Assembly: GCF_014696435.1 (NCBI RefSeq)
Contig: NZ_JACJQG010000012.1
Coordinates: 95,432 to 159,431 of the forward strand
Length of the DNA stretch: 64,000 nucleotides
From: Calothrix anomala FACHB-343
Lineage (GTDB): Bacteria > Cyanobacteriota > Cyanobacteriia > Cyanobacteriales > Nostocaceae
Direction: 5' to 3'
Positions within the stretch are counted from its first letter, which is position 1. Every line of letters begins with the position of its first letter. A model generated the notes under the pieces. That model was not told where the DNA came from and ran no database searches. It saw nothing but the letters and a program-made list of their open reading frames with translations. The position numbers and the translations under genes were made by a program. Shown piece by piece: positions 3,243-64,000 of this stretch.

Positions 3243-3364
3243 TCAAGTAAATAGACCACGCTGTAGGGGCACGGCATCAGTAAAATTATTGTATGTACAA
3301 AAAGATTGTCGGTGCCGTGCCCCTACGATAGATGTGGTTCAAATAGGTGAAAACTGCTGTAAAT
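3243..3364. repeat. Dispersed 120-bp palindromic repeat, copy 1
   Basis: Nearly the same sequence occurs at 8159-8280. The shared frame is AGGTAAATNGACCAC, CTGTAGGGGCACGGCATC, a variable centre, GGTGCCGTGCCCCTAC, TGTGGTTCAAAT, then TGAAAACTGCTGTAAATA. The GTAGGGGCACGGCA and TGCCGTGCCCCTAC arms pair with each other, so the unit folds as one hairpin with a variable loop. A left-hand fragment is present at about 29957-29980. Confidence 0.8.
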
Positions 3365-8083: not shown

Positions 8084-8316
8084 CAATTCTCTGTAAACTT
8101 GCACTTAATAACTGCTTCTTTTCTCTTGGCGTACTTGGCGGTTCATTACAGAAATTTTCAGGTAAATCGACCACACTGTAGGGGCACGGCATCCATAATA
8201 TTCTCATATATACAATAATCTTACTGGTGCCGTGCCCCTACTACGATTGTGGTTCAAATGCATGAAAACTGCTGTAAATAAATATTTAGTGCATCATAGT
8301 GAATTGGTATTAGTAT
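8084..8316. repeat. Composite of two dispersed repeats
   Basis: This fills most of the 451-bp gap after the P450 gene. The first part (8088-8146) is the reverse complement of 35016-35137, where the same sequence is split by a 48-base insertion, so this copy is the empty site. The second part (8159-8280) is copy 2 of the 120-bp palindromic repeat at 3243-3364. No gene is visible in 8054-8504. Confidence 0.8.
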
Positions 8317-12346: not shown

Positions 12347-12459
12347 AGGGAACTCCAAAAATTAAATTATCCCAAATTGTAGGGGCGGGGTTACCCCGCC
12401 CCTACAATTTGCGGATTTGGTAAGTAATAATTGGAATATTTTTTTATTTGGAAATCCCT
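12347..12459. mobile_element. 113-bp MITE-like repeat, copy 1
   Basis: The terminal inverted repeats are imperfect (AGGGAACTCCAAA and TTTGGAAATCCCT) and the centre is a palindrome GTAGGGGCGGGGTTACCCCGCCCCTAC-type hairpin. A second copy lies at 45540-45653 with about 90% identity. Each copy is bordered by TA. It starts immediately after the stop of the preceding gene, so it may also serve as that gene's terminator. Confidence 0.75.
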
Positions 12460-13157: not shown

Positions 13158-13210
13158 ACCTTATATATAGCGTTATTAGGGCGGTCTTTGTTTGTCACAG
13201 TTGTATTTTG

Positions 13211-13371
13211 GGGAGCATCCCAATTTTGACGCAATACCCTAGAAGGGTATTGCTATACCAACAAAGCCTGCCTTGGCAGGCTAAAAGTTTGATAGCCTGC
13301 CAAGGCAGGCTTCGTATTTCTAGCCCCACCCTTATAGGGTGAGGGCGTTTTTGCACATTTGGGATGCTCCC
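13211..13371. repeat. Multi-hairpin repeat element, copy A
   Basis: The element has outer inverted repeats GGGAGCATCCCAA (13211-13223) and TTGGGATGCTCCC (13359-13371). Inside are three palindromes. H1 (13231-13253) has a 10-bp stem. H2 has 20-base arms (13264-13283 and 13293-13312, 9-base loop), each arm itself a GCCTGC-N4-GCAGGC hairpin. H3 (13323-13346) is GCCC-CACCCT-TAT-AGGGTG-A-GGGC with one bulged A. A second copy lies at 63677-64000; related elements lie at 29991-30232 and 17086-17287. Minus-strand open frames across this repeat are not credible genes. With the next two entries it fills the 500-bp gap before 13660. Confidence 0.9.
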
Positions 13372-13387
13372 GTACTTTGATGATGCA

Positions 13388-29990: not shown

Positions 29991-30232
29991 CCCATTGGTG
30001 TCAACTTAAGTTCAAACGCTTACCCAACAAATCGCCCACAGGCTGTAAGCCTGGGGCTAACGCTACAAAGCCCACCTTTGTGGGCTAAGAAAATTTAGCC
30101 CACGCAGGTGGGCTTTGTTCAATTAGCCGCACCCTTACAGGGTGACGGCGGTTTATTGGGTAAGCGAGGGGTTGAGAGTGAGGACAAAACTTTGCAACCA
30201 AAAGGGTTTCACGTTAAGTTGACACCAATGGG
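29991..30232. repeat. Multi-hairpin repeat element, member B
   Basis: Perfect 19-bp outer inverted repeats CCCATTGGTGTCAACTTAA (29991-30009) and its complement (30214-30232) bound the element. A second pair, GCTTACCCAA and TTGGGTAAGC, lies inside. The core has H1 (30034-30057), H2 with 23-base arms (30065-30087 and 30096-30118) around a 9-base loop, and H3 (30126-30149) GCCG-CACCCT-TAC-AGGGTG-A-CGGC. Arm length, loop length and hairpin order match element A at 13211-13371, but the stems differ. It fills the msrA-ftsH gap with a fragment of the 120-bp repeat; open frames crossing it are not credible genes. Confidence 0.88.
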
Positions 30233-45539: not shown

Positions 45540-45653
45540 AGGGAACTCCAAAAAATAAATTATGCCAAATTGTAGGGGCGGGGTAACCCCGCCCCTACGA
45601 GTTGCGGGTTTGGTAAGTTAATGATTGGAATATTTTTTTATTTGGAAGTCCCT
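45540..45653. mobile_element. MITE-like repeat, copy 2
   Basis: This is the second copy of the element at 12347-12459, with ends AGGGAACTCC and GGAAGTCCCT, a GTAGGGGCGGGGTAACCCCG palindromic centre, and TA on both sides. It is followed by another GACACATC/TTCTATAGGGC repeat (45668-45735). Confidence 0.75.
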
Positions 45654-63676: not shown

Positions 63677-64000
63677 GGGAGCATCCCAATTTTGACCGAA
63701 GCAATTTTAGATTTTAGATTTTAGATTTTGGATTAAATGAAAATTTGAAATCTAAAATATTTGGTCTCAAGCCTCTGGGTTAACCCAGAAGAAAAACAAA
63801 AATTTTTCAATATTTAAGCCTCTTCTTTATAAGGAGAGGTTAATCCAAAATCGTAAATCCAAAATCCAAAATTGAATGACGCAATACCCTAGAAGGGTAT
63901 TGCTATACCAACAAAGCCTGCCTTCGCAGGCTAAAAGTTTGATAGCCTGCGAAGGCAGGCTTCGTATTTCTAGCCCCACCCTTATAGGGTGAGGGCGTTT
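63677..64000. repeat. Multi-hairpin repeat element, copy A' (cut by the window edge)
   Basis: The left end GGGAGCATCCCAATTTTGAC (63677-63696) matches copy A at 13211. The core (63882-64000) is nearly identical to 13231-13350: H1 63882-63904, H2 arms 63914-63933 and 63943-63962, H3 63973-63996. The H2 arms differ from copy A by one base each (CCTTGGC to CCTTCGC, and GCCAAGG to GCGAAGG), and the two changes compensate. A 181-base segment splits the left end from the core. The right end lies beyond the window. Confidence 0.9.
63697..63877. mobile_element. 181-bp insertion nested in repeat A'
   Basis: Copy A shows these bases are absent from the intact element. The insertion is bordered by TGAC on both sides (63693-63696 and 63878-63881), a likely 4-bp target duplication. 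It begins CGAAGCAATTTTAG, contains tandem ATTTTAG units, the palindrome CTGGGTTAACCCAG, and an inverted pair GATTTTGGATTAA / TTAATCCAAAATC near its ends. It carries no gene. Confidence 0.7.

Follow-up and report, generated by a model that had tools for sequence, protein, structure and literature searches.

Does a paired base change between two nearly identical repeats of a cyanobacterial genome point to a hairpin that is selected as a folded molecule, or to the way in which hairpin DNA is copied? The question is raised by two copies of a repeat, A and A', in a window of 64,000 nucleotides of Calothrix anomala FACHB-343, the whole stretch of DNA that was analysed here. A sequence-only reading of the window had described a multi-hairpin repeat family with an architecture unlike that of named cyanobacterial elements, and had taken the paired change between the two copies to imply selection on folded RNA or single-stranded DNA, or hairpin-templated repair. 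Paired base changes are usually read as a signature of functional RNA.

Copy A and its parts lie at the following positions.

13211–13371, forward strand: complete MITE copy of 161 bp (copy A), non-coding
13203–13210, no strand: left target-site duplication GTATTTTG, one mismatch from its right partner GTACTTTG
13372–13379, no strand: right target-site duplication GTACTTTG
13211–13228, forward strand: left terminal inverted repeat GGGAGCATCCCAATTTTG, 18/18 bases identical to one end of the ISKra4 element of G004
13354–13371, reverse strand: right terminal inverted repeat GGGAGCATCCCAAATGTG, 18/18 bases identical to the other end of the same element
13231–13253, forward strand: hairpin H1, GCAATACCCT-AGA-AGGGTATTGC, from the MFE fold; the loop occurs as AGA or TCT
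13264–13283, forward strand: arm 1, GCCTGC-CTTG-GCAGGC, a hairpin in itself
13284–13292, forward strand: central loop, known in two orientations (AAAAG or ATCAA type)
13293–13312, forward strand: arm 2, GCCTGC-CAAG-GCAGGC, a hairpin in itself
13323–13345, forward strand: hairpin H3, CACCCT-TAT-AGGGTG, the insertion place of another IS in other copies

The 13-mer GGGAGCATCCCAA forms both termini of copy A. The 18-nt terminal arms (13211–13228 and 13354–13371) are 89% complementary, and the inner part is a quasi-palindrome with two 48-nt arms that are 81% complementary. The folding z-scores are −11.7 for DNA and −12.5 for RNA, and none of 200 shuffles is equally stable. Each 20-base arm had been described as a GCCTGC-N4-GCAGGC hairpin, and this is confirmed by four mismatch-free occurrences of the motif in the window; with up to two mismatches allowed, six matches are found against 1.43 expected, a number reached by 0 of 100 shuffles. 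The Rfam scan of the window yielded 0 families at the gathering score, in line with the sequence-only reading. Other GTAGGGGC-type palindromes of the window, at 12373–12411, 45566–45604, 3263–3326 and 8178–8241, are REP-like.

The repeat is abundant. The GGGAGCATCCCAA 13-mer has 142 exact matches in the window's own genome (G000, a draft of 144 contigs) and 96 in a second genome (G001, with a main contig of 8,527,291 bases), while a reversed-pattern control has 0 in both. A full-length search of G000, with 40 of 199 first-look candidates scored and one strand of each place counted, gave at least 41 places that span at least 140 of the 166 query bases, and element matches of some kind were found in 32 of 59 relatives. 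We extracted 98 oriented copies, 51 from G000 and 47 from G001, and kept 97 for analysis (50 and 47) after leaving out the 241-bp form at L071 as a nested duplicate; the sample is partial, the 142 terminal matches in G000 implying about 70 copies against the 51 taken. Target-site duplications (TSDs) are exact in 76 of the 97 copies (8 bp in 68 and 9 bp in 8) and exact or one-mismatch in 87 (11 with one mismatch), and 10 copies have none. The target of the window copy is uninterrupted in all eight same-genus genomes searched, where query bases 86–198 run unbroken across the insertion point at 75–95% identity; the closest of these genomes has a single GTACTTTG at the empty site.

Insertion into a long ORF was scored by a strict rule in one of the 97 copies, which is a lower bound, the rule having missed the window copy, which interrupts a gene. 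Only 16 bases of this gene, presumably for an intradiol dioxygenase to judge by its sequence, remain to the left of the MITE, and the left neighbour of copy A is by its resemblance taken to be arfB. The remaining left flank matches other places, so that the locus must also have been rearranged. Family A, as copy A and its relatives are called here, shows the marks of a MITE: a short element bounded by terminal inverted repeats (TIRs), without a transposase gene, with TSDs, empty sites and a high copy number, and mostly intergenic. The description as a multi-hairpin repeat family is borne out. A search of a plasmid collection gave nothing beyond one 72% partial match, in Gloeothece.

Several arrangements depart from the simple copy. 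L071 (G000:C63:1-800) holds nested or tandem MITEs, in which a complete copy adjoins a partial copy whose core forms the flank. At L002/L003 two tandem copies have a common 9-bp TATTGATTC, and G001 (L031) has one copy. A 185-bp form with a 24-bp extension of one arm hairpin is common in G001 (L101, L105 and others) and occurs once in G000 (L078); an GCAAAAGAAGGC arm variant was noted alongside the 185-bp copies in G001.

The repeat has the ends of a known kind of element. Judged by sequence, the MITE ends are ISKra4-type, an outcome that the sequence-only reading had itself listed as one that would count against it. A 1.8-kb element of the same genus (G004) is identical to the MITE in 13 of 13 terminal bases at both ends, and each MITE end matches its own end of this element further inward (AAATGTG and AATTTTG), 18 bases in all. 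The element has an 8-bp TSD, AATTGTTC, and its transposase scores 209.2 bits against NCBIfam NF033572 (ISKra4), for which the cut-off is 205. The window's own genome has a diverged ISKra4 element (L157) with a 9-bp TSD and with ends GGGAGCATCTCAG that differ from the MITE at 2 of 13 positions; it has two consecutive ORFs, of which only the second matches NF033572, with 258.3 bits. With the G004 transposase as the one query, the own genome gave one match, in the element with ends GGGAGCATCTCAG, and no autonomous partner with exactly the MITE ends was found there, 100 of the 142 TIR places being listed. G001 contains one further match to this transposase, in an element with ends GGGAGCATCCACT. 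An ISKra4-type transposase probably moved the copies, and an abundant repeat of filamentous cyanobacteria is tied in this way to ISKra4-type ends.

The layout of two consecutive ORFs in the own-genome element is shared with the ISMich2 group, for which one report describes it (PMC3942029); the criterion for this subgroup is a transposase encoded by two ORFs that a −1 frameshift connects. Within the ISKra4 family (ISMich2-like layout, p-MULT 4 Mutator-like transposases), the G004 element has its 18-nt ends and an 8-bp TSD in common with the MITE, whereas the four-hairpin interior of the MITE stands where the IS has its transposase gene. Other candidate sources were rejected. An IS1-family mobiliser was suggested by the TSD length and the appearance of the ends, and the three IS1 transposase matches bear other ends. 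An IS with ends CTTGTCATTACC abuts the MITE at H3 with both ends; it has thus inserted into the MITE and did not give rise to it. Solo TIR matches were also discarded as ISs: L100, L104 and L118 have no second end nearby, and L118, L132, L134, L135, L138 and L145 lie in or at what is apparently one conserved gene.

Copy A' had been described as a continuous stretch up to the end of the window. Repeat sequence is indeed present there, but it is split by a foreign insert and cut by the end of the contig.

63677–63696, forward strand: left end of copy A'
63697–63876, no strand: foreign insert inside copy A', containing a 35-nt inverted repeat and bordered by TGAC on either side
63877–64000, forward strand: remainder of copy A', ended by the contig end

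The insert (63697–63876) is about 180 bp long and AT-rich, with ATTTTAG-like repeats. Position 64000 is the last base of the 159,431-base contig C24 and lies inside the repeat, and many other contigs of the draft also end in it. Over the 123 shared bases compared, from GACGCAATACCC to the window end, copies A and A' have two differences only, namely G at 13275 against C at 63925 and C at 13301 against G at 63951. One falls in each arm and the long-stem pairing is kept; the paired difference is thus real.

This pairing is not kept in the family at large. The cores of the 97 copies include 72 short and 21 long ones, with four unparsed (L117, L123, L204 and L209). Among the 72 short-core copies of the two genomes the tetraloop pair is CTTC/GAAG in 51 and deviates in 21, and the deviating pairs are complementary in four cases (CTTG/CAAG twice and CAAG/CTTG twice) and non-complementary in 17, for example CTTG/CTTG, CTTG/GAAG and CTTC/CTTC. 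The difference seen between A and A' belongs to a set of mixed variants and is no general rule, and as evidence of selection the paired change fails among close copies.

The same four-hairpin core was found with other ends in a second family, represented in the window by one copy.

30017–30166, no strand: copy B, with the same four-hairpin core as copy A and other ends

Copy B and 29 further loci of the own genome (family B) have the hairpin order of family A, similar linkers and different ends. The nearest ends are CTTACCC/GGGTAAG, in many cases as part of TGTCAACTTAA, a sequence present at either side of copy B.

The mechanisms originally named include hairpin-templated repair, and the H1, central and arm loops as well as whole cores do occur inverted. 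The H1 loop is AGA in 26 and TCT in 9 of the 50 copies of G000, and AGA in 29 and TCT in 13 of the 47 copies of G001. Another 11 copies of G000 have a shorter H1 loop, CAA, the inverse of which, TTG, was found in one copy of G001. The central loop is of the AAAAG type in 23 and of the ATCAA type in 27 copies of G000; the corresponding numbers in G001 are 14 and 29, with four left unassigned. All four combinations of the H1 and central loops occur in both genomes (12/14/6/3 and 10/18/3/9). The 4-nt arm loops are also found turned round (CTTC/CTTC and GAAG/GAAG), the 185-bp form of G001 has the whole core in both directions, and G022, from another genus, has both H1 loops and an inverted core. 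In family B the centre is inverted as well (11 against 8 of 30 loci in G000 and 7 against 5 of 29 in G001, the remainder having other loops), the GAGCTTAC arm lies on either side (3 and 6 in G000, 1 and 4 in G001), and the whole core occurs in both directions. No inversion of the H3 loop was found in the 95 copies parsed of 97 (TTATA in 94, TTCTA in one, two unparsed), and none of the 97 copies has any of the four unpaired linker strings inverted. The loops that turn over most are those on perfect 20- and 10-bp stems, and the loop on the short, imperfect H3 stem does not, which suggests that stem length matters for loop turnover.

Inversion differences were also found at single insertion sites common to two species, in 3 of the 10 sites with both flanks aligned (five of family A and five of family B). 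In family A, compared between G000 and G001, the H1 loop is inverted at two of five sites (L027/L111 and L217/L183), where the arm changes are uncompensated, and three sites have no clean loop inversion. In family B an arm loop is inverted at one of five sites (L274/L342, of which L274 is copy B), where the other arm loop is replaced; three sites have no inversion, and at L302/L343 the element is in opposite orientation with a different sequence. Other differences accompany the inverted loops (L027/L111 differs in an arm block, L217/L183 in two arm bases and L274/L342 in the second arm loop), so that conversion from another copy could have supplied the inverted form at these three sites. Pairs aligned at one flank were left uncounted (L024/L198 in family A; L283/L341, L293/L355, L299/L363 and L299/L364 in family B).

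Loops and cores of both orientations are thus present in copies with MITE anatomy and ISKra4-type ends, and at some shared insertion sites the orientation differs. The best explanation, to which we assign a probability of about 0.78, is a MITE with ISKra4-type ends in which template switching or the processing of cruciforms rewrites the palindromes and the variants are reassorted between copies. The molecular route that we infer for the inversion is as follows. An ISKra4-type transposase would bind the GGGAGCATCCCAA ends and insert the element with target duplications of 8 or 9 bp, the element itself coding for nothing. Between the ends, H1, arm 1, arm 2 and H3 make the whole a quasi-palindrome, and hairpins could form when its DNA is single-stranded or extruded. 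A strand switch inside a hairpin during replication, or the processing of a cruciform, would copy a loop or the whole core as its reverse complement, and either event could also bring the two arms into agreement. The variants would then be mixed as copies reassort. The two-base paired difference between A and A' would be one such product and not evidence of a selected RNA.

Template switching between inverted repeats is described in one account as homogenising arms and inverting spacers (PMC8604942), and another describes compensatory changes and loop inversions among its possible products (PMC8794818). Loop inversion together with arm matching makes the MITE similar to the template-switch evolution of hairpins (PMC8794818, PMC8604942) and to the small hairpin inversions of plastid genomes. 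Unlike those cases, the present one is a high-copy bacterial MITE in which several hairpins and the whole core are affected at once.

The alternative that survives best, and that we nevertheless hold to be rather unlikely, is that the hairpins are selected as RNA, for transcript stability or termination, or as protein-bound single-stranded DNA. Compensation would then reflect selection, and the loop inversions would be neutral since the loops would not matter. The relevant comparison includes 113 cores that give 51 distinct arm pairs, drawn from families A and B and from other genera; 45 further cores were tried for this set, and L301, L233, L241 and L250 were unparsed. Pairing was tested by pair counts against shuffles and slides. 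In favour of selection, 94.8% of the cells of the local hairpins are paired (86.8% in shuffles) and 7 of the 12 pairs have double changes, 86 cells in all; the core is found again in other genera and between different ends; and four arm pairs combine perfect local hairpins with a broken long stem, while none shows the reverse. Inspection by eye shows the stems of H3 in G022 and of H1 in G030 preserved through double changes. Double changes between families and genera are genuine, but 81 of the 86 double-changed cells represent one family-level switch, from GCCTGC to GCCCAC, which affects pairs four and five of each arm, and kinship alone can beat such shuffles without structure. The long stem beats its shuffles too, with 87.0% of cells paired against 80.4%. 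The further pair types of the local hairpins do not exceed shuffles (14 against 15.3; 500/500), and the long-stem pairs with a double change do not clearly exceed them (8 against 6.8; 127/500). Against selection also stand the mostly uncompensated deviations of close copies (17 of 21 tetraloop pairs) and the absence of Rfam matches at the gathering score in the window, and template switching can, in one description, keep stems matched without selection (PMC8794818).

The core had been proposed to fold either as one long stem or as two short ones. Both folds beat their shuffles, as stated, but the long stem is the poorer of the two (87.0% against 94.8%), and its four loop columns are unpaired in 12–19 of the 51 arm pairs. 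The short local hairpins are what persists across families. The better local pairing between families fits selection on structure and also template switching.

Two further explanations are improbable. The flips could arise during transposition, for example in an intermediate that is single-stranded or has hairpin ends, with resident copies unaffected. Most copies do look recently moved, with exact TSDs in 76 of 97, but inversion differences are present at 3 of 10 orthologous two-flank sites, although conversion is possible there. Alternatively, and with little likelihood, the core could be a unit of the REP/REPIN type that a RAYT (tyrosine transposase) moves and that has come to lie in several MITEs. 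As in GTAG REPs and REPINs, the MITE core has TAG-tagged, GC-rich hairpins in opposed orientation; the copies of G022 and G030 read GTAG, and GTAG REPs are reported from filamentous cyanobacteria, some of them within longer palindromes (PMC3733652). Against this, the GTAG tag at the hairpin foot is present only in some other genomes and absent from the window copy, which reads CTAG at H3 and ATAG at H1, and the MITE, unlike REPs and REPINs, is bounded by transposon ends with TSDs. A hairpin scan, by one rule, of seven of the nine Y1-transposase loci of the own genome gave one unrelated palindrome, at L265. It is very improbable that misassembly of inverted repeats produced the orientation variants: G000 is a draft of 144 contigs, many of which end inside the repeat, but the same variants are present in G001, with its main contig of 8,527,291 bases, and in G022, and contigs that stop about 106–140 bases inside the element suggest that the assembly used words exceeding the hairpins in length.

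Rewriting of the palindromes by template switching or cruciform processing remains the preferred explanation for family A, and it bears on how paired changes are read. In about 100 close copies and at shared insertion sites, loops and cores are inverted and arm changes are mostly unpaired, and covariation in repeat families hence needs such a control. Family A is a directly testable system for the rate of in-place inversion as a function of stem length.

MITEs as a kind are well known, and it is the hairpin turnover by inversion and the shared core that make family A a variant. Nezha and other cyanobacterial MITEs, from Anabaena and Microcystis, are likewise short TIR elements in many copies, a likeness drawn from their description, and family A may coincide with one of them; for Anabaena sp. 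90, 147 MITEs of 77–541 bp are reported (PMC3542288). No earlier description of the family (ISKra4 MITEs, core inversion, Calothrix or Tolypothrix repeats) was recognised in the literature searched, which covered few subscription papers.

The results suggest that a single hairpin core is passed from one MITE family to another. Besides families A and B, a core with CTACCGTGTACACACAAG-like ends was found in another genus (G019), with such an end at one side in each of three loci. We tentatively consider it possible that the core is a separate transferable module in MITEs with unrelated ends; its short hairpins would be retained on the time scale of genera, and frequent inversion in place would keep changing its loops and its whole orientation. 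The carriers of such a module might then be, as tentatively, MITEs with ISKra4-type ends, MITEs of the own genome with CTTACCC / TGTCAACTTAA-type ends, and those of another genus, with ends of a third kind. If this is true, the core would be a hairpin cassette that outlives its carrier transposons, and its many copies would be a natural record of bacterial template switching.

The MITE is also entered, at H3, by another mobile element. An IS with ends CTTGTCATTACCAACATCTTTTAAAGTG (L083 and L085–L099 in the own genome) has 11 of 16 ends inside the MITE, always at the H3 palindrome CCCTATAAGGG. The single end of this IS in G001 (L084) lies outside the MITE, and at L247 in G007 a related IS end was found within an H3-like palindrome. 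The CTTGTCATTACCAACATCTTTTAAAGTG-ended IS looks like a second element that targets the hairpin of the MITE.
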